Assembly: GCA_949358305.1 (NCBI GenBank)
Contig: OX442321.1
Location: 4,799,605-4,863,604 of the forward strand
From: Strigamia acuminata
Taxonomy: Eukaryota > Arthropoda > Chilopoda > Geophilomorpha > Linotaeniidae
Direction of reading: 5' to 3'
DNA: 64,000 nt
Shown here: positions 17,281-59,457 of the stretch, piece by piece
Layout: each line of letters opens with the position of its first letter
Position numbering within the stretch: the first letter of the stretch is position 1
Notes under the pieces: model-generated
The model's input: the letters and a program-made list of their open reading frames with translations, nothing else
Databases searched by the model: none
Told to the model about the DNA's origin: nothing
Position numbers and translations under genes: made by a program

Positions 17281-17575
17281 TATACTCTGACCAACCCTTA
17301 GAAGGGGACCAGTTCCTCGAGCCGGTTTACTCGTGTAGGACTACATAAAAGTAGGCCAAAATACCAGAAACACAATGGATGTGCATACGTTGCTTCCAGA
17401 CTTTTAAAAACATTTTATTATTAAATATAAGTCAATTTACATCATTTTAAAAATCTAAAGTAATCAAACTAATTAAAACCATAACAAAACTACTTTTCTT
17501 GGTAGAAGTATACATGCAACAGTTAGGAGTAAACAGGCTTGAACTGGTCCCCTTCTAAGGGTTAGTCAGAGTATA
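17281..17575. mobile_element. TA-type MITE, TATACTCTG family, copy A
   Basis: A 295-bp element with near-perfect terminal inverted repeats of about 35 bp (left TATACTCTGACC, right GTCAGAGTATA). The terminal TA at both ends suggests TA target duplication as in Tc1/mariner-like MITEs. The interior (GTTTACT, GTGTAG, ACACCAGAA-like motifs) is related to copies at 33872 and 50088. It interrupts the channel fragment ending at 17280. Confidence 0.85.
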
Positions 17576-22994: not shown

Positions 22995-23812
22995 TGTCGC
23001 GTCCTACTTTGTATAGGTTTAAATAGCGCTAACGTGTAATACTTTACCTGTGATCAATTATGCAAATACCCAAATGAATACCAAATGTATGTAAATAAAC
23101 AGGTAATTTATTCACCAGGCTTTATGCCTTTAAAATACACTCAGTAATAATTCTAGAGTCGACGTGGTCAGCGTCGAACAAAGGATTTCTCAAGATGGCG
23201 TCGTCGATTCCGCGTGGTCGGCGGAACAAAGGCGGCGTCTCGAGTTGTCGTTAATTCGTCACGGATTCGTCTTCACGGACGCGGTGGAATGCTCTTTCGA
23301 GTCTTCTATCCGTGCCTGTTGTCTAGGGTTGGTTTAGCGTCGCAGAGGCCTCGTCTAGGAACTTTGGGGTTCCCTACAAAGCACTCGGACACTTACTTCG
23401 GCGAATAATCGTCTGGGCGATTATTCTGGGTGATTTCACAAGGGCTATTCTCGTGCTTTCGCAGGAATAGCTCGCAAGTGACTTCGTGAGAGTTACAGTT
23501 CGCACTTTACTCAGCGATCCTCGATCAATCCTAACTTGTAGTTGAAGTTGGCCTGACGGTGAGGTAGTTGCTGTGTTCTTGGTGTCGTTTGTGTAAGTTC
23601 TGTCTTTTGGCGGGAATTTCTCCCTTTTATGGGTCAGTGTGAGGGGCCGGCGCAGCCAATGGGGGCTTGCCACCCGACACCTCACTCCCCTCGGGGCACA
23701 CACCTGCTCAGAGAGAGGCGGAGCCAACACGAGAGGAATGACCCGTCTGTTGTAGTGAGTCAAAGGGCAAATATCCGCTTGGGGGGAATATTTATCCCTT
23801 TTGCTCACCACA
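22995..23812 (-). repeat. 3' LTR of the 22995 element
   Basis: 818 bp, same length as the partner at 28474 with an exact offset of 5479 across all shared landmarks. It is the 3' LTR because the long gene and primer-binding site run on the - strand from the other copy. Confidence 0.93.
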
Positions 23813-23824
23813 CGTCCTTCCCCC
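23813..23824 (-). other. Polypurine tract of the 22995 element
   Basis: On the - strand the bases immediately before the 3' LTR read GGGGGAAGGACG, a purine tract in the position where plus-strand DNA synthesis is primed. Confidence 0.75.
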
Positions 23825-23843
23825 AGCTTTGAACACGGGGTGT

Positions 23844-26800
23844 TCACAAGCGATCCCTAACTCTCCTCCAGCTCTTAGCCCGTGGTAACGTATAATCAAA
23901 ACTTAAGGCTGAAGCCGGGATGTGTGGTGTCGGGAATAATTGGTTTCCGTTGGAAATAGAACGTGGGTTCACTTGCTCACTCATGGAGAACCAAACATGT
24001 TTATTTTTTGGTTTGCATGTTGTTTCGGTCTGTGTACGCCTCCAATGAGTGAGGAATACAACGAGAGTTCCACTGTCGTTGTGGGTGGCCGATGTCTCTA
24101 TGGCAATGGTCAGTACAAATGGGCTAGCCGTATGAGTTGGAATTGACTTTGTTGTTCTCGGTACTCTGGGTTGTTGATCCTGTGAGTTCTGCGATGAGTC
24201 TTGTCGCTCCCGATTGTTAGTTGATGGTGAAGTTGTCGAGGGCTCAACTGCAAGTGGTAAAATGACACACCAGGGGCTGGTTGGCTGTTGGCTAGCTGAT
24301 GTAATTGGCCAAGACAGTCCATCTCTGTCGTGTGTCAAACCATAGTGGATGTTGCTTGTCGAGGGGACAACTGGGCTCCACATGTCGCTCATTGATGGAG
24401 GTATGCTTATATCCTCTCGATTAACGGTGGTCCAAACAGCCATAGCTTGTTTTACATGGCAATCTTGGGCCAAGTCTGTATTGGACAAAGTGGCGACGGC
24501 GACTTTGGCGTTTTCCATTTCACGAAGAAAAGTCTTGAGTTTGTTACAATTGGGATTCTGCCGGCTGTTTGTATTATTGTCACGTTGCTGGTTAATGTTG
24601 ATAGGGTTTATCTTCTCACAGACTTGTGGGCGAATATTTCTCGCCTGAACGATGACTGGGTCAATTGGGGTTAATCGACTGCCCCACTTCTCGTTTGATA
24701 ACTCCACCAGATGTCGTTCATCATCTATTGGGGCTTCCGTCATTGAATTTTCGATTGAGGGGGCTGTACCGGCATTGCTTTGTTTCTGGTGCTTGGCGCG
24801 GCCGGGCCCCACTGTGGTTGGTTCTTCATTTGCAATCTCTGTCGGCAGCGTTATTAAAGTCTTGATGCAGCGGTGAATGTGTTCTGATTTTGACTGAATT
24901 TCTAACCATGTCTTTGGGGAAACTTCTGGCAGATATTGTGTCAGCCGATCCACATCCACAGGCTCTGATTTGTAGCTGTCTATTATTTGCAGCAGTTTGT
25001 AAGTATTGCCGCCCTGTCCAGCTCTGCTCGTGCCGGAACTGCCTCTTTGAACTGCCTGACTGGCAGCCGTATCCTTGGCTGCACTGAGCAGTTTGTGAAT
25101 TTCTTTCCAAACATGGTCATTAGCTTCACAGTCCGTGAATGGAATATCCGTTTCCAAATTGTGAATTCCCTCAAGTATGTCGAAATTTTGTGCAATCAGG
25201 TTTTGATTCCACTTGCACCCATATCCATATGTCTTGCTCGGGATATTCTTTAATTTGCCATCAAAATCTTTGAATATTTGAAAGACAAATTGCGTGTCAT
25301 TGTCTGATAATACTTTTTTCTTGAATTTGAATTTCAGTGCTGCATCGAATAAATTCTCTGTGATCTCCACAGCAAAGCGTTTAGCGAGGGCACAGATCTT
25401 AATCCGCCCAGTGGCAACATATTGGGGATATTGTCCAATGAGATAAGAAGTGTTTTTTCTCATCCTGTCTGGGTGGCTGGTCAGCGGGGGCTCGTGTAAC
25501 AAACAGAGGATTTGTTTCTTCAGAGTTGACTGCACTGCTATCATTCTAGTGTTGTCTGGCTCACTCCAATTGTCTTTGAAGTTTGGACACAGTTTGTCTT
25601 GCTCACAATCTGTTTTTAATGCTCCTTTCTCCATTTTTGGCTTTTCTTGATTTTCTTCCAAAATTATTGTTGCTTTCTTTATCTCTTCCCCTCCCAAGAT
25701 GTCTTCGTCCAACTGATTCGCTCTCTTGAGCTCTGAGAAGGAGCGGTTAGCAACAAACTCTTTATTGTGGCACTTCGTAGTGAGATCGGGCGGTCGGCGC
25801 TTCATTGCAAATGGTTCACAATTGGCCGCTTGATTCTGCGCCGGTCGGTTCCTTTTTTCTCTTGTCTTTTTTCGTTTCTCTTTTTGGTTTTTCTTTCTGA
25901 TGGGTTTAGTAACTTGAGGAGTTTGTAACGTCCCAACTGGAGGTGGTTGAGCCCTTTTTCCTAGCTGTTTTTGTTTCACCGTTGCTCTGGTTTTTATCGG
26001 GCTGCGTGAAGAGGCCCTAATTTGACAGTCAACTTTGGGATTATGCAACGTGCTTGATTGGTTAGGCTCCTGAATGCAGTCTTTTATTTTTTTGCTTTCA
26101 TTTAGACAGGGGGTGCCTTTATATTTGTTCATTGGAGGTAACAATCGATTCCATTGTCTGTCTTCTCGCTCGGGATGATGTTCGTCGCATTTCTGTTTGG
26201 CACAGTGAGGATGATGTGTTTTATCATTTTCAGAAGTGCTTTCTTCTGCTTCCTCCCTCTCCGAAATCGCTTGCTCCGGTTGGGCTGGAGTTACGTCGGG
26301 CTGTTTTTGTTGGACAGTTTCCTGATGAGGACTTGATTGGTCATCTTGCAAAAGCTCTGGTTTGTCATTCATATTTTCCGGCAACAAATCTTGGTTATTG
26401 TGAAATAATTGACATCGAATTCCTTTGCATTTCTTTTGAATGTCATGTTTGTTTTCATAAAACTTGTTATGCGTGGGATGCAACGGAATTAAGGTGATTA
26501 ATGGTGACTGAGACCGTTCTTGTTGTTTATTTTCCTTCTTGTGGCGAACTTTATTGTCATTATTTTCAGAGTGGTGACAATGATGTAGTCGTCCGCCTTG
26601 TGGCCAATTTGGCTGATTTTTCGAATTGTTTGGCGGCTTTTTATTGTTCCATTGCTTGTGACAATGCTTCTTTCTTTGCTTCAGCGCTTCTTCCCTTCCC
26701 TTTCGGTTTATACCGATACATTCTCGTTCATCTGTTGTGCGACTCGCGTCAATTTGTATTTGCTGATCCACGATATCATCCAAACTGGTTGAATAAGTGT

Positions 26801-28403
26801 CAGTGTTCGAGATGTTCGTACGTCGACGTGCTTGGCTGGTGCTTGTATTTCTCGCACTGTTTCCTTCATCAAATTGTTTAATTTTTTCCATTGGTTCTAA
26901 TATTGCTTGCCCTGCTTTATTTGTTTGTCCATGTTCATCACAAATATTCATGATTGGCAGTGGAGTCAGTGTAGAAACCCGTACATCGTTTGCCGTTTTA
27001 TTTTTGTTTTGGTCGCAGTTTATTCTTCCCGAAAAAGAAAAGACTGTTTTTGTTAAATTCTCTTTCTGTGCAGTCTTGCCGTCTGACGCTTTCGTTAACA
27101 GCTTGGTCAAGTGGCTGACCTTGCTCGTTACTTTGGTGTGGCTTGGACATGAAGGGGGCGTTGCTTTTCTGTCTTGAGCTTTTTTCTTTGGCTTGTGTTT
27201 ATAATTTTCAAATTCAGACTCGAGGCAGCTTAGCAGTGTTTTAGTTCTATTTGATGCTTCCTTTCTGTTGTCCTTTGTCGTTTGCTCGTGGACATGCGGC
27301 TTGGAATTGGTTACGAAATCTTTTCCCTCTTTGGCTTTCACATTCACTGCTAGTTCACGGTTTTCTTGTCTGAATTTTTTTGCTTCTTTCTCCCAGTTTT
27401 CGGCTTCCCATTTTTTTTGTTCGTCTAATTGTTGCTCTTTTTTCTCTCTAGCCTGTTCAGCTCTCATTCTTTGTATTATTCTTTCCGTTCGCTCGACTGT
27501 CCTTTTGTCGCGTTGTTGTTTTTCTTCTTCTTCCCTCCAAAGTTGTCTTCTTTCTGCGCTCAATTTTCGTTGCCGATTTATTGTTTCCAATCTCGCTTCT
27601 TCTCGAGCTTTTTCGCGGGCTTTGTAAAGGGCCTTTTGGGGGTCGGGTACAAAACCGCCTATTTCACTTGGCGTTTCTTGTTGCATGGGCGTTTCCGCTG
27701 CTGGTGTTGCGACTGGCGTTGGGGTTTGTGCCACACAAATAGCATCAGTGAGCAGGGTAATCGATTCCCAAACTGACGTTCCGACTGGAATGTCTATTAC
27801 TGCTTCGAGTTGGGCCGCTTGTTGTGTCAGCCGTATTAAATGGGCCACTTCAGGGGGAACGGAGGCAGGTCTCGCCGTAACTTGGGGAGTTATCGGGGTC
27901 CCGCCCAGGTTCCGTACTGGAGTCTGGTCCATTGGTGGCGATGGGTCACTTCGGGGGAAACGGAGGCAGGTCTCGCCGTAACTTGGGGAGTTATCGGGGT
28001 CCCGCCTTGGTTCCGTACTGGAGTTTGGTCCATTGGTGCCGATTGTATTTGTTTGCCTCGGAGTTTTGTGTGTCTCCTCGGCCACTAATATCGATACTCG
28101 TTCGGTTGATTGTTCGTGAATTTCTTCGCAATTTTCTGGAACTTCTGTATCGGTATCTTCAAAGGTTTGCGTATTCAAGGGAATCCGCTCTCGCTCTGGC
28201 CCATGGTGGGCCGCGAGCGATGCAGCTTGCTCCTTTTTCTGCGTATTAACTTTTTGTTTGTTCGCTCGGGCTTTCGCCTTAGCGGATTGTTCTGGAACTG
28301 GACCGCCCGACCTTTGGTGGTAGTCGGAGGTCCTGTTTCTCTTTCTGAGCATAGGTTGCTCGGTTTCAGACGCGGATTGTTCGTCTTTGTCTGACATTTT
28401 CAT
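23844..28403 (-). CDS. Retrotransposon polyprotein-like ORF (gag-like, with vestigial integrase)
   Basis: 1519 residues from the ATG at 28403; the frame is open further upstream to the LTR, but that part includes the primer-binding site. The stop lies 31 bases before the 3' LTR, so the gene fills the element. The first third is polar, with a long charged coiled-coil-like block (KAREKAREEARLETINRQRK and onward). No zinc knuckle and no YxDD reverse-transcriptase box are visible. Around residue 1030 the text LSDNDTQFVFQIFKDF, preceded by HEPPLTSHP and followed by KNIPSKTYGYG, resembles a retroviral-type integrase (zinc region, then SDxGTQF). The first Asp region and the final catalytic Glu region look missing, so I infer an inactive relic kept in frame. 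Product assignment beyond that is open. Confidence 0.65.
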   Translation of the reverse strand: MKMSDKDEQSASETEQPMLRKRNRTSDYHQRSGGPVPEQSAKAKARANKQKVNTQKKEQAASLAAHHGPERERIPLNTQTFEDTDTEVPENCEEIHEQSTERVSILVAEETHKTPRQTNTIGTNGPNSSTEPRRDPDNSPSYGETCLRFPRSDPSPPMDQTPVRNLGGTPITPQVTARPASVPPEVAHLIRLTQQAAQLEAVIDIPVGTSVWESITLLTDAICVAQTPTPVATPAAETPMQQETPSEIGGFVPDPQKALYKAREKAREEARLETINRQRKLSAERRQLWREEEEKQQRDKRTVERTERIIQRMRAEQAREKKEQQLDEQKKWEAENWEKEAKKFRQENRELAVNVKAKEGKDFVTNSKPHVHEQTTKDNRKEASNRTKTLLSCLESEFENYKHKPKKKAQDRKATPPSCPSHTKVTSKVSHLTKLLTKASDGKTAQKENLTKTVFSFSGRINCDQNKNKTANDVRVSTLTPLPIMNICDEHGQTNKAGQAILEPMEKIKQFDEGNSARNTSTSQARRRTNISNTDTYSTSLDDIVDQQIQIDASRTTDERECIGINRKGREEALKQRKKHCHKQWNNKKPPNNSKNQPNWPQGGRLHHCHHSENNDNKVRHKKENKQQERSQSPLITLIPLHPTHNKFYENKHDIQKKCKGIRCQLFHNNQDLLPENMNDKPELLQDDQSSPHQETVQQKQPDVTPAQPEQAISEREEAEESTSENDKTHHPHCAKQKCDEHHPEREDRQWNRLLPPMNKYKGTPCLNESKKIKDCIQEPNQSSTLHNPKVDCQIRASSRSPIKTRATVKQKQLGKRAQPPPVGTLQTPQVTKPIRKKNQKEKRKKTREKRNRPAQNQAANCEPFAMKRRPPDLTTKCHNKEFVANRSFSELKRANQLDEDILGGEEIKKATIILEENQEKPKMEKGALKTDCEQDKLCPNFKDNWSEPDNTRMIAVQSTLKKQILCLLHEPPLTSHPDRMRKNTSYLIGQYPQYVATGRIKICALAKRFAVEITENLFDAALKFKFKKKVLSDNDTQFVFQIFKDFDGKLKNIPSKTYGYGCKWNQNLIAQNFDILEGIHNLETDIPFTDCEANDHVWKEIHKLLSAAKDTAASQAVQRGSSGTSRAGQGGNTYKLLQIIDSYKSEPVDVDRLTQYLPEVSPKTWLEIQSKSEHIHRCIKTLITLPTEIANEEPTTVGPGRAKHQKQSNAGTAPSIENSMTEAPIDDERHLVELSNEKWGSRLTPIDPVIVQARNIRPQVCEKINPININQQRDNNTNSRQNPNCNKLKTFLREMENAKVAVATLSNTDLAQDCHVKQAMAVWTTVNREDISIPPSMSDMWSPVVPSTSNIHYGLTHDRDGLSWPITSASQQPTSPWCVILPLAVEPSTTSPSTNNRERQDSSQNSQDQQPRVPRTTKSIPTHTASPFVLTIAIETSATHNDSGTLVVFLTHWRRTQTETTCKPKNKHVWFSMSEQVNPRSISNGNQLFPTPHIPASALSFDYTLPRAKSWRRVRDRL
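27864..28067. repeat. 101-bp tandem duplication inside the retrotransposon ORF
   Basis: Bases around CAGGTCTCGCCGTAACTTGG occur at 27866 and again at 27967, offset 101, with flanking similarity through TCCGTACTGGAGT and GGTCCATTGGT. Because 101 is not a multiple of three, the two copies are read in different frames of the same gene: NLGGTPITPQVTARP in one, TEPRRDPDNSPSYGE in the other. Neither frame contains a stop. Confidence 0.85.
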
Positions 28404-28453
28404 TTGGTTATTTTTAAAAGAGATCACAAGTTCAGTTTGAGATTTATTTCTAA

Positions 28454-28471
28454 ATCCCGGACAGACCCCCA
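28454..28471 (-). other. Primer-binding site, tRNA-Pro-like
   Basis: On the - strand, two bases after the 5' LTR, the sequence reads TGGGGGTCTGTCCGGGAT. Its complement ends in CCA and resembles the 3' end of animal tRNA-Pro as I remember it (CCCGGAC core, CCCCCA end) with about three differences. The position is certain; the tRNA identity is tentative. Confidence 0.6.
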
Positions 28472-28473
28472 CG

Positions 28474-29291
28474 TGTCGCGTCCTACTTTGTATAGGTTTA
28501 AATAGCGCTAACGTGTAATACTTTACCTGTGATCAATTATGCAAATACCCAAATGAATACCAAATGTATGTAAATAAACAGGTAATTTATTCACCAGGCT
28601 TTATGCCTTTAAAATACACTCAGTAATAATTCTAGAGTCGACGTGGTCAGCGTCGAACAAAGGATTTCTCAAGATGGCGTCGTCGATTCCGCGTGGTCGG
28701 CGGAACAAAGGCGGCGTCTCGAGTTGTCGTTAATTCGTCACGGATTCGTCTTCACGGACGCGGTGGAATGCTCTTTCGAGTCTTCTATCCGTGCCTGTTG
28801 TCTAGGGTTGGTTTAGCGTCGCAGAGGCCTCGTCTAGGAACTTTGGGGTTCCCTACAAAGCACTCGGACACTTACTTCGGCGAATAATCGTCTGGGCGAT
28901 TATTCTGGGTGATTTCACAAGGGCTATTCTCGTGCTTTCGCAGGAATAGCTCGCAAGTGACTTCGTGAGAGTTACAGTTCGCACTTTACTCAGCGATCCT
29001 CGATCAATCCTAACTTGTAGTTGAAGTTGGCCTGACGGTGAGGTAGTTGCTGTGTTCTTGGTGTCGTTTGTGTAAGTTCTGTCTTTTGGCGGGAATTTCT
29101 CCCTTTTATGGGTCAGTGTGAGGGGCCGGCGCAGCCAATGGGGGCTTGCCACCCGACACCTCACTCCCCTCGGGGCACACACCTGCTCAGAGAGAGGCGG
29201 AGCCAACACGAGAGGAATGACCCGTCTGTTGTAGTGAGTCAAAGGGCAAATATCCGCTTGGGGGGAATATTTATCCCTTTTGCTCACCACA
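28474..29291 (-). repeat. 5' LTR of the 22995 element
   Basis: 818-bp copy adjoining the primer-binding site; it therefore carries the element promoter on the - strand. It is followed on the + side by the ATAT target duplication. Confidence 0.93.
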
Positions 29292-29790
29292 ATATATATT
29301 GCATTTTCCATATTAATCTGAATTACAAAAAAAAAAACAAGATTTTATTACAAAATGACCTTGCAACATTCTGAATGCATTATGGATTTTTCTTGCCTCG
29401 GTAAACAGAACTGACTAAAACTTCAAAGAAAACATAAAATATTTCATTAGAAATTAATTCCACAAGCGATACCATCTGAAAAAATTCACTCCCAGTCAAG
29501 TAAGAGTTTTGAATTTTCTAACCATTTCTTCAGTTGCTGTGATGTACAAAATATCAGTTAATTAGCTAAGTAAATGTATTGTAACAATAGTATATGTTAC
29601 CATAAATCTATACATAGAAATCTTTGTTGTTAGAATAAACAATACACTGCTCATATTGTAGTACAACAATCAAATAGCATGTCAACCTTTATTCTCCTCA
29701 AATAGGGTTAAGACTTAGATGCTTCAACACTAAACAGCACATTTTTTACTTGCTACGTGACCTTTGAAGCAGTTTGACCACAATTATACA
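29292..29790. other. Upstream flank of channel gene 3; nothing else seen
   Basis: AT-rich sequence between the LTR element and the first exon of channel gene 3. No repeat or gene recognised. The promoter of gene 3 should lie here or may be affected by the LTR insertion about 500 bp upstream. Confidence 0.5.
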
Positions 29791-32790: not shown

Positions 32791-35715
32791 ATGACTCTAC
32801 AACAACATGAAATCACTACAATGTGCGACCAACAATCGCGCCGTCCCGAGCTGGCAGAAAAGTTCGATTCAACCAACATGGAAGGAATCTCACTCATTTC
32901 TAAACTCTACATTCCATCTCATCCTGCAGGTCGCGCCCGGAAAAAAATAGCCTTCGTCAAGTACCACAAAACTTCAAGCACCAGAAACGATAAGTATTAC
33001 AAATCGGGTGCTCCGAAGACCTCCACCGCAAGCCTCGATCAGATCCCCACCTCGGGAAAAAGCTTTCTTTATTATTTCTTTTGGTTTCTAGTGTTAGCTT
33101 TCAGCACTTTAATTTGCTTCTACCAACTCTACGATCGATTTTCCCTTTACCTATCCAAGCCCATTGATATCAGAGTGACCCGAGTTCGCAATTCGTCCGT
33201 CAAGTTCCCATCCATAACTCTATGTCCTAAAACTGACAACTACTTAGCTTTGATTAGTCCACGATACTACAAAGCAAAAGCATTGCAAAAGAATCCAACG
33301 GCACGCCATCTTTGCGCCGTGACTCCTTTTGCTTTGCTCAGCAACACCCTTAACGTTTCAACCTTATGGGATAACATGAACATTCTTGGAATATTGGAAA
33401 AATTTTATGAACTTTCTGTAAGGGAATTTTAACGTGTAAAGCTAGGTTCGCACTTGTGTACACACTAAACGCAACGCAAGAAAACTGACGTAATGCAAGC
33501 TGCTTGCGTCCAAAAATTCTTGACGTTGAAGCCAAATCCTGCTTCAACTAACAAGTTGAATTAAGCGACGCAACGCAAGGAAAGGTCTTGCGGCTAACAA
33601 ATCACAATCGACTCCAACTCTCGTCGATTCACATCTGGTTGGCGAGACTTCGCCACGTGCAAACAAGCCGCCAATTTCGGACTCTGGAACTAGTTCTACA
33701 ACTAGATTCAATTCCAGGTTTCATTTAAACCATCTGATTGGCCAGACGCGACATCAATTGTTTCAGCTCTGTTCACAATCACAAGTGCCCTACAGTGTGA
33801 ACAGACTCAGCATTGCGTTTGACTAATTATTCCTTGCGTTGCATTGCGTCCAGATTGAACAAGTGCAAACCTATACTCTGTTCACATTCAAGAGGATCCC
33901 TGGAATCTTCGCTGCCATTGGCCGAGCCATTTCACTTGTGTAGTGATACATAAAAAAGACCCAAAACACCAGAATTGTAATGATGTACAGACATTGTAAT
34001 CGATTACGTACCTAGGTTCCAAACAAAGCAAACAATAACCTTAACAGACATGCATTTTAAAATAAAAACAACATAAAACTTTATTCTACAAATAGATAAT
34101 ATATTTTATTCCAGAATAACATTAAAATAACATCATTTCAATCATTATTATACGAAAAAAGAATTAAAATCATACGAAACTACTTTTCCTCGTGGTAGAA
34201 CTTCGACTACAGGTCTGAGTAATCAGACTAGGCCAATGGGAGCAAAGATTCCAGGGATCCTCTTGAATGTGAACAGAGTATAGCTTAAATCATTCAATTA
34301 AAATATTGAAAAATGTATTGTTCCAGAGGTCCAAAATTATACAAATGAGACCAAATGCAAAAGTGTCGCAGGATCCGCCTTCATTTCAGCAAAGAAGTAA
34401 CGTCAGGACTGTGTTTGGCACGTGCATTACGTATACTAACAGTAAGTTAAAACTGTAATTACATTTTGTGATGTCTTTTTTTTAAAATTTGCATTTATTT
34501 TTAGAAAATCTTATTCGTTTTCAAAAAGATGATTTCCAGTTAGTATTCACGTTCATGGAAAAGAGCTTGAAATTGCTTTGCGACAACAAAACCATTGTTA
34601 ATGTAAGTAAAATTATAATTCATGGATGACATTGTTCTAATCTCAAGTTTCTAAACAGATTGTGTTGCACAATGACGACTATGAATTGACTTACAATGTA
34701 TTGCGTCTAAACCAACCCGTCAGATCATTCACCCAAATTATTTTGGGCTTATCTGCTAAGCGGGTGCGTTTCGTTTTGCTAGTATTTGCCCTTAGTACCG
34801 TATTTTACCGATTAAGAGTCGCCCTCGAATAGTAGCCGCGGCTGAGACACCAAGAATAGCGTATTTTTGCAAAAGTACGGTATTGTTTTCGTATTTAACC
34901 TCACGAACGATGATCGTACGTTTCGTTCGTGACGATCAGACTTCGTTTGTTACATTAAACAAATGTAACAAACGAAAAACGGAAATTGTAATTGCTGACA
35001 AAAATGGCAGTTTTGAATAAGAACCGCGGCTCTTAATCGAAAAAATACGATATTTGTTAACTTATGCGACATTAAATTCATTAGATCATGCTTTTGAATC
35101 GAACCGAAAGCCCATGCGATACAATTCGAGTCGCAAAGGGGTGCGAGAAAACCTGCTTTGAAAATGCATTGAAAAATATGAGTTACTGCAGGTAAAATAA
35201 CAAAATAACCAATCCACTTATTGCCATTGGTAAATAAGCTGTGCTTACTGAGCCATTGCCCAATGACAATTAGTGGATGGTGTGAATAGAGTTTCCGCAT
35301 AACAATTGGTGTGTATCTCAACAGATTGCCAATAACTTCCGTTTCGGAGAGACCACTATGCGTAAATGAAACTGCTGTGTCAGATGCGTACTACCAATTG
35401 CTGGATATGATCATTAACTTTAATTATTTGGAAAATTGTAAATGTCCCAAAATATGCGACGAAATTCAGTACACGGAACACATGAAACAATCCGTATATT
35501 CTCGTGATACGAGTTTATCCATCTACTTTGAGGACGATGTGATTGAAGAAATTGAAGAGTATTACAGCTACCCTTTTATACCATTCATCTGTGATGTCGG
35601 TGGAAATTTGGGTCTCTTTTTGGGATTGAGTGTCCCCGCAGTTTTTCAAATCGCGGAGTCGGTCATCGCCTTTATTTTAAAAACGCCCATATTGAATTCA
35701 ACAAAAAAGAAATAG
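32791..35715 (+). CDS. DEG/ENaC-type ion channel subunit, cluster gene 4 (6 exons)
   Basis: Predicted exons: 32791-33417, 34327-34441, 34505-34602, 34659-34763, 35085-35191 and 35325-35715. They total 1443 nt and encode 480 residues. It differs from genes 1-3 in its N-terminus: one long first exon gives about 90 residues before TM1 (residues 92-112). The acceptor-like CATCCTGCAG|GT at about 32935 sits at the place and phase of intron 1 in the other genes but is read through. The start could also be the ATG at 32821 or 32878. FPSITLCP, NCKCPKICDEIQY and GGNLGLFLGLS are all present; the extracellular Cys pattern is kept. Two introns hold MITEs (33872-34282, 34796-35052). AATAAA lies at 35780. 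Confidence 0.87.
33872..34282. mobile_element. TA-type MITE, TATACTCTG family, copy B
   Basis: 411 bp in the first intron of channel gene 4. Terminal inverted repeats of about 38 bp, left TATACTCTGTTCACATTC, right its reverse complement ending CAGAGTATA. Interior motifs (CACCAGAAT, GTACAGACATTGTAATCG) are shared with the copy at 50088 and more distantly with 17281. Confidence 0.88.
34796..35052. mobile_element. Small inverted-repeat element in an intron of channel gene 4
   Basis: Ends TACCGTATTTTACCGATTAA and its inverted partner (TTAATCGAAAAAATACGATA) with an internal hairpin CGTTTGTTACATT / AATGTAACAAACG. About 257 bp, non-coding, MITE-like, between exons 4 and 5. Confidence 0.75.
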
Positions 35716-36308: not shown

Positions 36309-37094
36309 ATGGCCGTCAGTAAACACCCACTAGACTTGGCATCCAACTTGGAAGCACTTCGCCAACAGCAATCCTGCACCGACGTCGTCATGGAATGCGC
36401 AGGTGGCGTCGTCCACGCCCATAAAAACGTTTTAGTAACATCCTGCCCGTATTTCGAGAAGATGTTTACCGTAGACATGGTGGAAAAAAACACCGGATGC
36501 GTTCGATTTACAGGAATTTCAAGAAAAGTGATCGAAATCATCATCAAATATCTCTACGTCGCCGAGATCCCAACTCTAGGCAACGATTGCGACTCGTTGA
36601 GAGAGCTGATTGCAACCAGCCGCATGATGGACCTGGAAGATTTGCTCATCAACTCTTGGAAACTGACGACCAACGACTTAAACGCCGAAAAATTTGCCAA
36701 ATTGTGGGCAGTCGGAGTTGATTTCGGCTTGGAAAAAGAAGGGACGATCGAAACTTTTGTTCAAAATAACATGAAAGAGATTTCCGAAAATTCGCAAGTG
36801 CAAGATTTAACGAAAAATCAACTGACTAAACTCATCGAATGTGTTGATCGCGAGCGATTTTGCAACGAATGCATTCTATGCCTCTTCAAGTGGAAATCCA
36901 GTAGCAGTGAAGCTGTTACAGTTAAATTATTGGAGAAGCTCGACCTGCAACACTTGAATAACGCTTCTTTGTACGATTTGTTACAAAACACTCGCAGCGA
37001 CGAGAAGAAAGAAACTATGGAGAATCTTCTGACTCGAGAAGCTGTGGCACGATTGCCCAGATTCTCTGAATCAAAACTAAATATTAGTAATTAG
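36309..37094 (+). CDS. BTB-BACK protein without Kelch repeats, BTB copy 1
   Basis: 261 residues from ATG at 36309. A BTB/POZ domain occupies residues about 18-110 (SCTDVVMECAGGVVHAHKNV, CPYFEKMF, IIIKYLY), followed by a BACK-type helical region to about 225 (AKLWAVGVDFGLE). BTB domains dimerise and, in BTB-BACK-Kelch proteins, bind CUL3 to bring substrates to a ubiquitin ligase; whether these Kelch-less proteins do so is not known. Compared with copies 2 and 4, the Cys-rich tail of about 35 residues is cut off by an in-frame TAG; the code for the tail continues in the same frame to TAA at 37197. The ATG follows a splice acceptor. Confidence 0.88.
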   Translation: MAVSKHPLDLASNLEALRQQQSCTDVVMECAGGVVHAHKNVLVTSCPYFEKMFTVDMVEKNTGCVRFTGISRKVIEIIIKYLYVAEIPTLGNDCDSLRELIATSRMMDLEDLLINSWKLTTNDLNAEKFAKLWAVGVDFGLEKEGTIETFVQNNMKEISENSQVQDLTKNQLTKLIECVDRERFCNECILCLFKWKSSSSEAVTVKLLEKLDLQHLNNASLYDLLQNTRSDEKKETMENLLTREAVARLPRFSESKLNISN

Positions 37095-40943: not shown

Positions 40944-41852
40944 ATGTCCGCTAGTAAACACCCGCTAGACTTGGCATCCAAGATGGAAGAATTACGTCAA
41001 CGGCAATCCTGTACCGACGTCGTGATGGAATGCGCAGGAGGCGTTGTCCACGCTCACAAAACCGTTTTACTAACATCTTGCCCGTATTTTGAGAAGATGT
41101 TTACCATAGACATGACGGAAAATAACACTGGACGCGTTCAATTTGATGGTATTTCAAGTAAAGTGATCGAAATGATCATAAAATATCTGTACGTTGCTGA
41201 GATGCCAACATTAGATGTCGGCGATTACGACTCGTTAAGAGATTTGCTTTCAACTACCCGGATGATGGATCTGCACGATTTGTACGTTGACTGTTGGATT
41301 CAGAGCAGCCGTGATGTAAATTTGGAAACATTTGTTGATTTGTGGGCCATCGCAGTTGATTTCGGTTTGGAAAAAGAAGGGTTAATCGAAGGTTTTCTTG
41401 AGAAAAACATCGTTACAATTTCTAAAGAAGCTCAAGTGCAAGATTTAACGCAAAATCAAATGAATAAACTGATTGATAGTCTCAAACACAGGGTATTTTG
41501 CAACGACAGCTTTCGTTGTATCCTCAAGTGGAAATCCACACACGATGAAGTTGTTGTCATTCAATTACTTAAGAAACTTGACCTGCGAGACTTGGACAAC
41601 ACACACTTGCACGATTTGCTACAAAATATGCGCAGCGACAAAACGGAAGAAACTATAGAAAATCTGCTGACTCAAGAAGCTGTGGCACGATTGGCACGAT
41701 TGCCCAAATTTGGCGAATTAGCCGAAAACCACAATATTAGTAAGCTGATAAAGGAAAATTGTTATAAGCGGTGCTGTCAAGACCTCTGGTCGTGTCCAGC
41801 ATCAGAAGCCATGAAAACGATAGAGGGTTTGTGCTTTAATCGATTGGTATAA
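40944..41852 (+). CDS. BTB-BACK protein without Kelch repeats, BTB copy 2
   Basis: 302 residues from the ATG at 40944, just after a splice acceptor (TTTAACAG, 40930). BTB domain residues about 18-112 (SCTDVVMECAGGVVHAHKTV, CPYFEKMF, MIIKYLYVAEMPTL), BACK-like region to about 230, then a tail with clustered cysteines (CYKRCCQDLWSC) ending FNRLV. Full length for this family. The likely promoter module lies before the 1.5-kb insertion at 39332, so expression may be altered. AATAAA at 42011. Role inferred only from the domains: dimerising adaptor, possibly of CUL3 ligases. Confidence 0.9.
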   Translation: MSASKHPLDLASKMEELRQRQSCTDVVMECAGGVVHAHKTVLLTSCPYFEKMFTIDMTENNTGRVQFDGISSKVIEMIIKYLYVAEMPTLDVGDYDSLRDLLSTTRMMDLHDLYVDCWIQSSRDVNLETFVDLWAIAVDFGLEKEGLIEGFLEKNIVTISKEAQVQDLTQNQMNKLIDSLKHRVFCNDSFRCILKWKSTHDEVVVIQLLKKLDLRDLDNTHLHDLLQNMRSDKTEETIENLLTQEAVARLARLPKFGELAENHNISKLIKENCYKRCCQDLWSCPASEAMKTIEGLCFNRLV

Positions 41853-48604: not shown

Positions 48605-49516
48605 ATGGCCGCCAGTAAACATGCGCTGGACTTGGCATACAAGATGGAAGAATTACGTCAACAGCAATCGTGTACCGACGTCGTGATGCAATGCGCAGGA
48701 GGCGTCGTCCACGCTCATAAAACCGTTTTAATATCGTCTTGTCCGTATTTTGAGAAGATGTTTACCGTAGACATGACGGAAAAAAACACTGGATGCGTTC
48801 GATTTGATGGTATTTCAAGTAAAGTGATCGAAATGATCGTAAAATATCTGTACGTTGCTGAGATCCCAACATTGGACCACGATTGCGCCTTGTTAGGGGA
48901 GTTAATTGAAACCAGTCGTATGATGGGTCTGGAAGATTTTCTCCTCGACTGCTGGAAACAGAGCAGCCATGATGTAAACGTAGAGACGTTTGTCGAATTG
49001 TGGGCGGTCGGCGTTGATTTCGACTTGGACAAAGAAGGGTCAATCGAAGTTTTTGCTCGGAACAACATTAAAGAAATTTCAGAAAACACGCAAGTGCACG
49101 ATTTAACGCCACCCCAAATGACTAAACTGATTGAATGTGTTGATCAAGAACAATTTTGCAACGAATGTATTCAATGCATCTTCAGATGGCAATCCATCCA
49201 CGACGGTGATGACAGTCAAGAATTCGCTGCTAATTTACTCCAGAAAGTCAACCTACGATACTTAGATGACAGGTCTTTGCATAATTTGTTAACGCGTAAT
49301 TGCAGCAATGATAAAAAAGTAACTGTCGAAAATATTCTCACTAAAGAAGCTTTGACTCGTTTGCCTAAGATGTCTGATGCCAAAATAAACATTTGTGGAA
49401 AGATACTTCAAAATTGTACCGCAGTGTGTCGATGGAGCAGACAGCACCGCTACAACTGCGAGGGCCAAACTGCATTGGAAAATATAAGAGTTTTATGCGA
49501 AAAATTACTTGAATAA
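48605..49516 (+). CDS. BTB-BACK protein without Kelch repeats, BTB copy 4
   Basis: 303 residues, ATG at 48605. BTB domain residues about 17-110 (SCTDVVMQCAGGVVHAHKTV, CPYFEKMF, MIVKYLY), BACK-like region (VELWAVGVDFDLD; LIECVDQEQFC), then a complete Cys-rich tail (CGKILQNCTAVC ... CEGQTALENIRVLCEKLLE). It is the closest relative of the C-terminal half of the chimeric gene at 50785, sharing DDRSLHNLL and EGQTALE-IRVLCE-LLE. AATAAA at 49565. It has the best-preserved upstream module of the cluster and is probably expressed. Kelch repeats, which would bind a substrate, are absent. Confidence 0.92.
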   Translation: MAASKHALDLAYKMEELRQQQSCTDVVMQCAGGVVHAHKTVLISSCPYFEKMFTVDMTEKNTGCVRFDGISSKVIEMIVKYLYVAEIPTLDHDCALLGELIETSRMMGLEDFLLDCWKQSSHDVNVETFVELWAVGVDFDLDKEGSIEVFARNNIKEISENTQVHDLTPPQMTKLIECVDQEQFCNECIQCIFRWQSIHDGDDSQEFAANLLQKVNLRYLDDRSLHNLLTRNCSNDKKVTVENILTKEALTRLPKMSDAKINICGKILQNCTAVCRWSRQHRYNCEGQTALENIRVLCEKLLE

Positions 49517-49689
49517 CGGAAACAAAGTATGGTATGCCTGTATTTCTTTTCCTTCGATTAAAAAAATAAAATAAAATACAAATTTCTTAATGTATGAATT
49601 CACAAGTGCAATACATCAAAATGTCAGCAAAATAAAGCGTGAAATGCAGAAAAAAGCCCTTAATGCGATAAACTGAAGTAACTACACTC

Positions 49690-50290: not shown

Positions 50291-50579
50291 TTTGACATTT
50301 TTTAATGTGTAAAACTTCATGTTAATGATGGAAATAACATTTTTTATTAAATAAAATCAAAATAACATAAACTAAATCAAGGTAACTATATAACAAGGTA
50401 CCGCAGCCCGGGACATTCTGAGTTATGACGTCACTACTTTTGGTCGTTTCCAAATGGTCATGTGATTTGTGCCGATGGCTGTGTCGTCACCACGAGGATA
50501 GATACCTTTGACCTTGTTTACATCTCCAGCTGAAACAACGAGTTGCAACAAGTTTTGGAACCTTTATTTACAATCCAAG

Positions 50580-50780
50580 GTAAAATATCATACGAATTGT
50601 GTAAAATATTATAAGAATTGCGTAAAATATTATAAGAATTGTGTAAAATATAAGAATTGTGTAAAATATAAGAAAAAAAAGAAAAATAAAAACAAAAAAA
50701 TAAAAATAAAAATATTTTATCTAAGAATTTAGATAATATTGCTTGTGATTTTAATTTCATATTCCTTATATATTTTACAG
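50580..50780 (+). other. Probable 5' UTR intron of the chimeric gene, with tandem repeats
   Basis: Donor CAATCCAAG|GTAAAA at 50580 and acceptor TATTTTACAG at 50780 bracket the stretch before the THAP ATG. Inside, at 50585-50675, GAATTGTGTAAAATATTATAA-like units of 15-23 bp repeat about five times, followed by an A-rich run. Confidence 0.55.
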
Positions 50781-50784
50781 GAAA

Positions 50785-52028
50785 ATGGCCAACTGTGCTG
50801 TAGCTGTATGTGGCAATTACGCAAGAAAAACAAAAGGGCAAAAGATTTCTTACCATGTATTTCCAGTGGATAATCCAGCACTTTGCCGCTTATGGGTTAC
50901 ACGATGCAAGAGAAAAGACAAATTTAAGGAAAAAAATGCGAGAATATGCTCTGTTCATTTTCCTCCTGATGCTTTTCAATTAAATTCTGTGAATGAAATG
51001 CTGAATATCCCATATGTGAAAACCTTAAAGCGCACTGCTGTACCCACTGAGCATTTAACAAAAAAAGCTCCTGGTAAGAAATTTAGGACATGAAATAAAT
51101 ATATGAAAGAAATATGAAGAAAATGGAATAAATTAAATATAAACATAATATGAATTTTAATAAACAAAAAGAATATTTTACATCTTTTTAGAGTCAACTA
51201 TAACTTCGAGTGATACGATGGAAATAACAACAGAAAAGACAACTACAGATCAGCTGTCTCCTCAACCATCAGCCCTCTCACCAATTACACCACCTGATAA
51301 TCAATGTAAGCAATATTATAGTGAAAAAAATATATAGTTTGAATTAAAATTAAACTTAAATTTTTTTAACAGGTAGAATAAAGCGATATGAGGCTAGGTG
51401 TGTACGAAAGCGAGCACTAGAACACATTCAGCAAATTTCACCGAAGAAAACTCACTATGATAAGGGTTGTAGTGTCGATATAGAAGATGTAAGATTTGCT
51501 CAGTTTGAAGAAAAAAGTAAAGAGTGTGAAGCGGAAAAGAAACAGTGGAAAGCAGAAAAGAAACACCTGTACAACATGACAGAAATTGCAGAAAAAGCAA
51601 GTGTGCATGATTTAACTGCAGCTCAATTGACTGAACTCATCAAATGTGTCGACCAAGTTCAATTTTGCAGCGAATGTGTTCAATGCATTCTCAAATGGCA
51701 TTCGAACCATGACTGTGACAGCAGTCAGGAAATTGCAGCTAATTTACTTCAGAAACTTAACCTGCGACACATAGATGACAGGTCCTTGCATAATTTGTTA
51801 AGGCGTAATTGCAGAAATGGACAAAAAGAAACTGTCGAAGACATTCTGACTCGAGAAGCTTTGACTCGCTTGCCCACTATGTCTGAAGCCAAACTAAGCA
51901 TTTGTAGAGATATACTTCGAAATTGTACCATACAGTGTCCACGGTGCAGAAAGCACTGCCACTACATATGCGAGGGCCAAACTGCATTGGACACTATAAG
52001 AGTTTTATGCGAAACATTACTCGAGTAA
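50785..52028 (+). CDS. Chimeric protein: THAP zinc finger, charged linker, BTB-family BACK half
   Basis: Predicted exons: 50785-51073, 51192-51305 and 51373-52028. They total 1059 nt, 352 residues, one open frame with GT-AG introns. Residues 1-95 are a THAP domain, a C2CH zinc finger that binds DNA in P-element transposases and THAP proteins: CAVAVC, then the RLW Trp, then ICSVHF, and the AVPTEH box at its end. Exon 2 is Ser/Thr/Pro-rich. Exon 3 begins with a Lys/Glu-rich helix (EEKSKECEAEKKQWKAEKK) and passes without an intron into the BACK half of the BTB family (SVHDLTAAQLTELIKCVDQ to the end LCETLLE), closest to BTB copy 4. The BTB domain is absent. The tail has extra cysteines (CTIQCPRCRKHCHYIC). 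AATAAA at 52071. The ATG is the first after a splice acceptor. Role unknown; a DNA-binding protein is inferred. Confidence 0.88.
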
Positions 52029-52059
52029 CGGAAACTAAGGATGCATGTATTTCATTTCT

Positions 52060-52290
52060 TGCTATTAAAAAATAAACATTAAATTTAAAACAAATTAACA
52101 TAAAAGTGCAATATGTCTGATGTTTCAACTTTCAATCAAGTTGTGAATGAGCGAGGCAGTGACCATTAGCATGCTTTCGAATCAGTAATTTATTTTACGT
52201 AAATGTAGGTGGCGCTCCAGAAGGTGGCGTCGCAAAAAGGTGATATAAAAAGGAAACAAGTTAAAAGTAAACACTAAGCTTGTACGCGGA
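52060..52290. repeat. 3' flank segment duplicated at 61890-62095
   Basis: AGGTGGCGCTCCAGAAGGTG and the sequence before it (AAAGTGCAATATGTCTGATG) recur after the second LTR element at about 61935-62080. This marks a segmental duplication of the tail and 3' flank of a BTB-type gene. Confidence 0.8.
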
Positions 52291-57060: not shown

Positions 57061-57522
57061 AGTTATTCTACTGTTCTGTTAAAAGTTACGGATTTTAATC
57101 TTAATCCGTGACAAGTTAAGGAATGTGACAACGAGAACCAATCACGACGCAGTTTTGAACATGCCACCCAGATTATGGATTACTGAGAATTCTGGATTAA
57201 ATTCGTCAGAAATATCTCAGTACCACCAATCAATGCAGACTTTCTTAACAATAGAAAATACCGGAAACCAGTTGGACAAAGAAATCTTTTCCCACACTTG
57301 CTTTCTATCAGCGTGACCGTTCAGTTGTGCCTTGTGGTCAGTGCCTTCCTGGACCATTCTTGACCGAAGACAAGACAGTTTTGACCGTAGCCACTTCAGT
57401 TTAGCAGCCAAGGTTGTATAATTTCATTTTCCTTTTTAGTTTAAAAATTAAGCGTGTTTTATTTGACGCTAGTATTTGTTTAAATTTCATTTTTTTTTTT
57501 TGTGTATTTCTCGACGAGTATT

Positions 57523-59457
57523 ATGGCCCGTAGACCTGTAAGAGCACGTGGAGCACGTGGAGGTCGTGGAGCACGTAGACGTGGTAATATGCGTGAACCA
57601 CCACGGGAAATTGTGGAGTCTGATCCAGAAAGTCAGGGGGACGAAGTTGTGCCTAGAAACAATTCCAACCCAAATAGTTCTCGGACAGAACCACTTCCAG
57701 TCTCGCAAGATTTAGAAATTTACTGCCGTCATTTCCAATTGGAAGTGACGCAATTTTCAACTCTATACGAAGCGCAACAATACACGGCGAATAATTGTCA
57801 CGGAAGAATTCGTGCAATATCTCCCGATGTAGTTGTATCAAACGAGCAGAATATTTCGATAGATTTAACCGGTGCTCGTACACCAGCCGCTTACCGCTAC
57901 CAGCAGTTGCCTGGATGGCGTATGAGTGTTGCACGCGAGGCAAATGAACAACCAAATCATGCGATTTCTGTTCAACCCGCGATTCAATTACCTGCTGCTT
58001 CTTGGAGAGCAAATTTGACGGACAGAGTGGAAAATCTTGGACACGAAGATTCTTCTGTTCCAATTTCTCATAATTTACCTAGTGTGACGGTCGGAAATAA
58101 TAATTTACCCGCTCACACTGGAAATTTGAATGAATCATTTCGAGTTCCACAGCCTCTCCCACGAAGGGAAAATCTGACTAATGTTCCAATCCAGCCAAGG
58201 GGGAGAAATGAACTTTCACAAAATTTTCAATCTCGCTCCCAATCCGATGGAAACTTTAGAAATTCTAGGAATTCCTATCAGGCTCCAACAGGACATGCTC
58301 TGCCGGGAAACCGACAATTTCCCCGAGCACCTGGTGATCCCCGAGATTCCAACCCGAATTCGAGCAGTGACGACTCTCAAGCTGGTGGAGGGGGAAATTA
58401 TCATAATAATAATTTCCACCAACGGAACCATTCCCGTTCTCCTCCGCCAAATGGACGACAGAATTTTAATAGACCAAATTCTTCATCTAGGGCTCAAGGA
58501 GATCGTTCCACGCCAAATTCGAATTTGACATCTAATTTGTCAAATGAAGATGTAAGACAAATAATTCAAGGCTTAGCTAGCCAAAGTCGAGACTCTAATT
58601 TAAACCAAAAATTCGGGAAAGGAATAGCGATTCCTATTTTCGATGGAAAACAATCCGAAGTTACTCGCTTTTTAGACATTGTAAAAGCTGTAGCTTCAGG
58701 GAAGGGCATTCCACTAGACGAAATGGTACACCAAGCTGTACCAGGTCGCCTATTAGGACATGCACAACGATGGTTTCATCAACAACGCCACACATTTATT
58801 AATTGGCGAGTGTTTGAAACCCTGTTTCTCGAGCGATTCGATTTAGTACCTCTTACGAGATCTAGACGCTTAACTAATGTGAAGCAACGAGCGGACGAGT
58901 CACTGTATTGTTTCCTCTTGCGATTTACCCAAGAACAAGGGGAAATACCACGTGGAGATAGAGCAGGACTTGAAAGCCTTTTCAATAATCTGACACAAGA
59001 AAGTTTTGCATTATTAATGGCACAAGGACTATATGGTGACTACACAGTCGATGATATTTTGCAATATGTCGGCTTGAATCGCTGCATGTTCGAGAATTCA
59101 GCACAACTAGCAGCAGACCTCGAGTATGATAATCAAGAAGATAATCCTGCTCCAAAAGCCAACGAAAAATCTAAGATTTTTCCATCACTTCGCTTAACTC
59201 GAGCTGAAGATGAGGTTAAAGAAGAAAATGAGTCAGAAAATGACGAATCAACTAATGACAATAGGGTTGATCGATCATTCACGACACAGTACGAAAATAC
59301 GACAGGGAAATGCTTTTATTGTCACAAGCCCGGACATTTCAAAAAAGAATGTCCAGCTTTGGCTAAAAAATTAGCCAGAAAAGCAGATTCAGCAAATCCA
59401 AATAAAAGATTTAACCAATCTGTCCTTAGCTCAGACTCTAATAAGAGACCTAAATAA
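57523..59457 (+). CDS. gag: Retrotransposon Gag polyprotein
   Basis: 644 residues from the ATG at 57523 (the open frame begins slightly upstream at a non-ATG codon). The N-terminus is Arg/Gly-rich (RGARGGRGARRRG). The middle is low-complexity Asn/Ser/Pro. Residues about 370-535 are a retrotransposon-gag-type helical region (WFHQQRHTFINWRVFETLFL, RADESLYCFLLRFTQ). A CCHC zinc knuckle, CFYCHKPGHFKKEC, sits at about residues 596-609 for binding RNA. It forms the capsid-like particle around the element RNA. It ends without a frameshift site leading into pol, as no pol follows. Confidence 0.92.
   Translation: MARRPVRARGARGGRGARRRGNMREPPREIVESDPESQGDEVVPRNNSNPNSSRTEPLPVSQDLEIYCRHFQLEVTQFSTLYEAQQYTANNCHGRIRAISPDVVVSNEQNISIDLTGARTPAAYRYQQLPGWRMSVAREANEQPNHAISVQPAIQLPAASWRANLTDRVENLGHEDSSVPISHNLPSVTVGNNNLPAHTGNLNESFRVPQPLPRRENLTNVPIQPRGRNELSQNFQSRSQSDGNFRNSRNSYQAPTGHALPGNRQFPRAPGDPRDSNPNSSSDDSQAGGGGNYHNNNFHQRNHSRSPPPNGRQNFNRPNSSSRAQGDRSTPNSNLTSNLSNEDVRQIIQGLASQSRDSNLNQKFGKGIAIPIFDGKQSEVTRFLDIVKAVASGKGIPLDEMVHQAVPGRLLGHAQRWFHQQRHTFINWRVFETLFLERFDLVPLTRSRRLTNVKQRADESLYCFLLRFTQEQGEIPRGDRAGLESLFNNLTQESFALLMAQGLYGDYTVDDILQYVGLNRCMFENSAQLAADLEYDNQEDNPAPKANEKSKIFPSLRLTRAEDEVKEENESENDESTNDNRVDRSFTTQYENTTGKCFYCHKPGHFKKECPALAKKLARKADSANPNKRFNQSVLSSDSNKRPK

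Follow-up and report, generated by a model that had tools for sequence, protein, structure and literature searches.

The window, meaning the whole 64,000-nt stretch analysed here (Strigamia acuminata contig OX442321.1, positions 4,799,605 to 4,863,604), carries four copies of a BTB-family gene, a truncated MITE and part of a P-type transposon whose third coding exon runs into the 3' half of a further BTB-family copy. The features on which our argument turns are the following:

36312-37094, plus strand, BTB copy 1, with a stop within the family alignment
40944-41852, plus strand, BTB copy 2, open, 302 aa
46136-46903, plus strand, BTB copy 3, with a stop within the family alignment
48605-49516, plus strand, BTB copy 4, the closest relative of the back half of the fusion; 303 aa, BTB at 54.5 bits and BACK at 23.5 bits
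50088-50377, plus strand, the 5' 290 bp of a high-copy MITE, right part missing; 95-98% identical to about 40 scored genomic copies (40 scored of 1633 candidate genome matches)
50378-51576, plus strand, 5' part of a P-type transposon copy (1,220 of 1,887 columns), beginning CAAGGTAACT
50580-50780, plus strand, probable 5'-UTR intron (GT-AG), containing 21-bp tandem units
50785-51073, plus strand, coding exon 1 (289 nt), THAP domain, from Pfam and the joined frame
51192-51305, plus strand, coding exon 2 (114 nt), linker, from the joined frame
51373-52028, plus strand, coding exon 3 (656 nt), coiled coil of the element up to 51576 and then the BACK half, with the stop codon at 52026-52028
51571-51576, plus strand, junction ACAACA, common to the element and BTB copy 4 by sequence comparison
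51571-52084, plus strand, 3' half of a BTB-family gene, including its stop codon, its 3' flank and AATAAA; 80% identical to copy 4, the similarity continuing beyond the stop

The three coding exons join across two GT-AG introns into 1,059 nt, or 352 codons plus a stop, which reproduces the three properly spliced exons and the 352-codon frame proposed in a preliminary description of this DNA. Its reading of the front as a THAP domain is borne out by Pfam, which places THAP at residues 4-88 of the fusion (E = 7.9e-15, 55.8 bits against a cut-off of 23.9). Residues 194-277 score as BACK at 20.2 bits, slightly below the cut-off of 20.9, and Pfam finds no BTB domain in the fusion, whereas all four neighbouring copies tested pass the BTB cut-off; copy 4 alone among them passes that for BACK. 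The same description had assigned the back to the C-terminal half of the local BTB family, with copy 4 as its nearest member, and had put the switch inside exon 3 near 51570 and not at an intron. Both points stand: the switch is located at 51571-51576, and a genome search with the fused tail returns 13 matches, among which copy 4 (80%) scores best after the tail itself. Two of these matches, of 36-40 bp, reach 90-94%. At the DNA level the back half matches copy 4 at 80% over 300 nt (51571-51870 against 49062-49361) and at 82% over 102 nt (51942-52043 against 49430-49531). A second haplotype of the fused tail in the assembly was considered and rejected, there being none among the 13 matches.

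A non-coding first exon probably precedes the THAP exon, judging from the sequence of the element, which starts at 50378. This upstream start, the repeat nature of the front half and the truncated MITE around it are all absent from the preliminary description. The splice sites of the 5'-UTR intron were read by eye (donor CCAAG/GTAAAA at 50579/50580, acceptor TTTTACAG/GAAAATGG at 50780/50781). At the other end, a poly-A signal (AATAAA) lies at 52071, in the BTB-derived 3' flank. A protein database search with the fusion returned none of 915 candidates at E <= 0.001, a null that is hardly informative for animals because copy 4 itself matched only two proteins among 560 candidates, both from Strigamia maritima (54% and 58% identity). 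The interval C10:4.83-5.14 Mb is an array of one short BTB-BACK family, with 32 of the 131 genome matches, six of them with a stop. One BTB copy of the array, in L068, is split by about 800 bp and has a related MITE ahead of it.

Sequence comparison identifies the front half as a P-type transposon of 1,887 bp that occurs at dispersed sites and of which the 5' two-thirds remain here. Queried with 50380-51590, the genome returned 34 matches; the near-identical copies end their alignment at the junction (51576), and only the diverged L014 aligns five bases beyond, within the coil repeats. Whole copies lie in unrelated flanks on C1 (L010 at 60.96 Mb, L011 at 2.84 Mb) and on C6 (L012), run 667-668 bp past the end of the window copy and align end to end over 1,887-1,888 bp. 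By blastn the window element is 98.2% identical to L010 and L011 and 98.0% to L012, while L010 and L011 are 100% identical to each other and L012 is 99.8% identical. The whole copies are bounded by CAAGG...CCCTG, and the end sequences CAAGG and CAGGG agree at four of their first five bases. No longer inverted repeat stands out, since 199 of 300 shuffles gave a local match between the 120-bp ends as good as or better than the real one. Target duplications, read at copies elsewhere (the right end of the window copy is lost, and L024 is seen as a right end only), are exact over 8 bp in two of the three whole copies (GCTGCCGA, TGTCCGTA), 9 bp long in the third (ACTTTGAAT), and again exact over 8 bp in L017, an 831-bp deletion derivative at C1:47.40 Mb (GGGTATAC). 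L017 keeps both element ends around unrelated sequence, as a P-MITE-like element. A copy on C121 (L065) shares with L010 the insertion and identical flanking sequence but is interrupted by an extra insert of some 2.5 kb; because insertion and flanks are the same, it is probably a second haplotype retained in the assembly. The complete identity of L010 and L011 in unrelated flanks, together with the 8-bp target duplications, indicates that P-type elements have moved very recently in this centipede genome.

The element encodes a product of 310 aa, a THAP domain and a coil ending in a stub, in which THAP is the sole Pfam match above cut-off. For the front half and its donor, the N-terminal THAP scores are 55.8 and 56.4 bits (cut-off 23.9). 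A relative of about 90% identity, L016/L063, encodes TNP-like_RNaseH_N (63.1 bits), TNP-like_GBD (41.6) and Tnp_P_element (26.0), all above cut-off, and the P transposase assignment of the window element rests on this longer relative, the element's own HTH-region stub being unscored by Pfam. This relative, at C1:13.13 Mb, is 88.7-90.5% identical across the shared exons and then runs on into the P transposase domains. The element matches L063 on both sides and lacks its middle (about 2409-3849); the 5' end of L016/L063 was looked for and not found. By these comparisons the window element is of a non-autonomous type, a 1.9-kb internal deletion derivative that encodes THAP, a coiled coil and a transposase HTH-region stub without a catalytic domain. 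Across the genome there are at least 148 matches to THAP and at least 117 to TNP-like RNase H. In translation, the coiled coils of L014 and L016 include a repeated unit of seven residues (like EAEKKQW) whose copy number differs.

On its left side the element adjoins the MITE without a gap: MITE similarity ends exactly where the element begins (50377/50378). Whole MITE copies are about 430 bp long with inverted ends of about 67 bp, and all three copies examined (L050-L052) run about 143 bp past the equivalent of 50377 to the inverted end. This remaining stretch of about 143 bp is absent beside the fusion, and its matches in the window are only to the MITE's own left end and, at 77-81%, near 17.5 kb. 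Diverged relatives of the MITE lie at 33912-34005 and 17406-17539. For the missing 667 bp of the element, likewise, the window offers nothing beyond brief similarities, most of them AT-rich (best 38 bp, E = 5e-4), and the 12 matches found in the genome all lie outside C10. Since the element starts at the MITE break, while the remainder of the MITE and the last 667 bp of the element are both gone, the order of events was MITE, then element, then deletion. A reciprocal deletion product was sought and rejected, as none of the 12 matches of the missing 667 bp lies on C10 and L068 (9.9 kb) contains no element sequence.

The junction reads CTGT-ACAACA-TGAC, where the element goes on as ACAACA-AAAC and copy 4 has GGA-ACAACA-TTAA. 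Among 200,000 random joins of element and copy 4, 0.26% share at least six bases and 2.2% share at least four. ACAACA is found in register in two of the 18 other BTB family members compared (copy 3 and L048) among the 131 matches. Because the true BTB parent is lost and copy 4 stands as its proxy, the microhomology at the junction may have been shorter than six bases.

We propose, with a probability of about 85%, that a very recent P-type transposon left its scar at this locus: the element inserted into a MITE and by a later deletion came to run in frame into the BACK-coding part of a relative of BTB copy 4. To judge by the sequence, the high-copy MITE occupied the site first, the 1.9-kb non-autonomous P-type element then inserted into it, and a later deletion took the last 667 bp of the element together with the right third of the MITE, so that exon 3 of the element is now joined at ACAACA, in frame, to the BACK-coding half of the BTB gene. 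The same deletion probably also removed the 5' half of that gene. The break may well have come from an attempted excision of the element, repaired by interrupted copying and then by microhomology end joining. For Drosophila, PMC2895639 describes P excision breaks that are repaired by interrupted synthesis and end joining, many of them at short microhomologies, and some repairs with flanking deletions, which are commoner in pol theta mutants. Transcription of the fusion would start from the element's own 5' end and be terminated by the 3' end of the BTB gene. We read the locus as a scar left by excision and repair, in frame by coincidence. The preliminary description had a P-like element breaking into a BTB copy; its attribution of the THAP half to such an element and of the back to the local BTB family holds, but the insertion was into a MITE, and the join was made by a later deletion at a 6-bp identity, with copy 4 as proxy for the parent.

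The age of the two halves bears on what the open frame means. Over 1,199 bp the window element differs from L010 and L011 by one substitution and by the loss of one 21-bp tandem unit in the 5' intron, and this sole private substitution is non-synonymous (A39T). Against L012 there are four substitutions, three of them private to L012. An open frame needs no selection here, because the P half, one substitution from L010 and L011, has had no time to decay. In the BACK half, pairwise comparison with copy 4 gives a dN/dS of 0.45 (dS 0.40, dN 0.18). Three-taxon codon models give the fusion branch an omega of 0.73, 0.98, 1.02, 1.28, 1.38 and 2.04 with six outgroups, against 0.31-0.42 elsewhere, where the outgroups are distant and have history in common and so do not amount to six independent tests. 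The branch omega is never distinguishable from 1 with any of the six (2dlnL at most 0.49), and a two-ratio model with a higher fusion branch beats one ratio (2dlnL > 3.84) with two of them. Against each of five outgroups, too, the pairwise dN/dS of the fusion half exceeds that of copy 4. Most of the fusion branch must predate the fusion, so that the parent BTB copy may already have been relaxed. Yet the BACK half contains no stop or frameshift, which argues against its plain decay, since neutral simulation with 20-60 random changes gave a stop in 65-93% of sequences. Purifying selection on the fusion was considered and is unsupported, the P half showing a single change and the BACK half no detectable constraint; the suggestion in the preliminary description that the fusion is "now kept open" is not supported by these same observations. 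We think the fusion is in all likelihood debris, neutral or slightly deleterious, and it may still be polymorphic.

A newly domesticated gene, in which a THAP-BACK protein is expressed and selected as a DNA-binding regulator of P-type elements or of nearby genes, is for the same reasons an unlikely explanation. The frame is open across three exons with GT-AG splice sites and is followed by a poly-A signal in the BTB 3' end, the 5' end of the element could be assumed to serve as promoter, and the BACK half has remained free of stops through many changes on its branch, where most simulated neutral sequences gained one; set against this are a P half that is too young, with A39T as its only change, a BACK branch omega that does not depart from 1, and pairwise ratios above those of copy 4 throughout. 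It is possible, though we doubt it, that the BTB copy was already a fragment without its 5' part before the element came, and that the deletion trimmed the element and the MITE alone. The relaxed rate on the branch of the BACK half would fit such a history, as would the stops carried by two of the three neighbouring copies 1-3 (copies 1 and 3). The absence of stops and frameshifts in the BACK half does not, and family similarity starts right at the junction, so that a single deletion is the simpler account.

Two further explanations concern how the join itself was made. The BTB piece might have been copied into the element from an ectopic template during gap repair, which would make the locus a transposon carrying a gene fragment. 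In connection with P-MITEs, PMC1562414 discusses the use of ectopic templates when P-element gaps are repaired, but we regard such a capture as very unlikely here, as neither strand of the window contains the final 20 bases of the element, even with four mismatches allowed, the similarity to copy 4 passes the stop into the 3' flank, and the piece sits inside the BTB array. Still less credible is a false join made in assembly through the element repeat. The P part is indeed a repeat with near-identical copies; however, the assembly of Strigamia acuminata was built from 98-fold HiFi reads, according to PMC10556566, and the join falls inside the repeat, where a short identity is shared and the frame is kept, with a fused tail that has no near-identical second copy.

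What the scar would encode can be approached through structural models. The AlphaFold model of copy 4 (pLDDT 77.7, pTM 0.65) has helices at residues 126-138, 146-153, 155-161 and on, and resembles the KBTBD2-CUL3 and KLHL11-Cul3 adaptors (Foldseek, best E 3.5e-8, TM 0.45-0.57 by query). The junction corresponds to copy-4 residue 153/154, between the model helices 146-153 and 155-161. Because the BTB-derived part starts at this residue, the fusion lacks the BTB domain and the presumed first two BACK helices (126-138 and 146-153). In the model of the exon-3 product (pLDDT 75.7, pTM 0.48) a single helix, residues 36-74, spans the junction, and a fold search with this model gave no matches at E <= 0.001. 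Of the element's protein, the fusion would retain THAP and the coiled coil but no transposase catalytic region. On these models, DNA binding and coil-mediated pairing may be retained, and Cullin-3 recruitment should not be present, unlike in BTB-BACK proteins. By sequence, the closest solved THAP domains are those of THAP1 (PDB 2ko0, 2l1g and 2jtg; E 1.1e-11 and 1.1e-10). THAP1 belongs to the host genes, and its C-terminus is different.

Genes in which a transposase DNA-binding domain is fused to a host domain form a known class, and such host-transposase fusion genes were reportedly treated by Cosby and colleagues in 2021. The present fusion is like these in that a mobile THAP DNA-binding domain is joined in frame to a host domain; it differs in having arisen by a deletion inside an exon and not by splicing into a host gene, and in being very young. 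To our knowledge, the known transposase-host fusions are old, selected survivors. Here a single genome shows which element was the donor, where the breakpoint lies and in what order things happened, together with a close relative of the host gene, at one substitution of age. This suggests that the P-type excision-repair cycle alone can fuse a THAP domain in frame with a gene next to it, with no need for exon capture. There is a base-rate warning here as well, in that an open chimeric frame and good splice sites come free at such a young element age. To judge from its sequence, the fusion appears unusual for its youth and legible origin, as the raw product of a chimeric gene near birth. Strict searches found no THAP plus BACK combination without BTB in the literature, which argues only weakly that none exists. 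From Octopus, THAP proteins that also carry BTB/POZ are reported, and PMC10027918 describes them as having a transposon source; they resemble the fusion in uniting THAP and BTB-family modules in one protein, whereas the fusion has no BTB domain and keeps only the later part of BACK.

P elements of reduced length frequently code for repressors, the 207-aa KP protein among them (PMC7776569). The KP element of Drosophila and other internally deleted P elements, as treated there, share with the window element a short non-autonomous form that encodes THAP and a coil without a catalytic domain. If expressed, the fusion would by analogy come closest to a truncated repressor of the KP type to which a foreign tail is attached; unlike that of KP, its tail comes from a host BTB-BACK gene, and a repressor role is suggested here by the analogy. 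If made, the protein should bind P-type element sequences and would perhaps dampen the movement of P-type elements as the KP repressor does in Drosophila. We consider it improbable that the whole chain holds, namely that a THAP-coiled coil-BACK protein was born inside an exon, when P-element excision was repaired at a microhomology and not through splicing, is putatively expressed from the element promoter, and acts in trans on its still-mobile sisters as a KP-like repressor with a BACK-derived protein-binding tail.

Other parts of the window contain further genes and possible mobile sequences. A 657-codon reading frame at 57484-59457 has a weak Retrotrans_gag match (21.1 bits, below the cut-off of 24.1), and a 1,562-codon frame on the minus strand at 23374-29344 has no Pfam match. 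The latter is flanked by nearly identical reading frames at 23374-23856 and 28853-29344, which resemble direct repeats at the two ends of an element. The stretch 13947-35715 contains fragments of several amiloride-sensitive sodium channel (ASC) genes, and all four such reading frames tested score above the Pfam cut-off.
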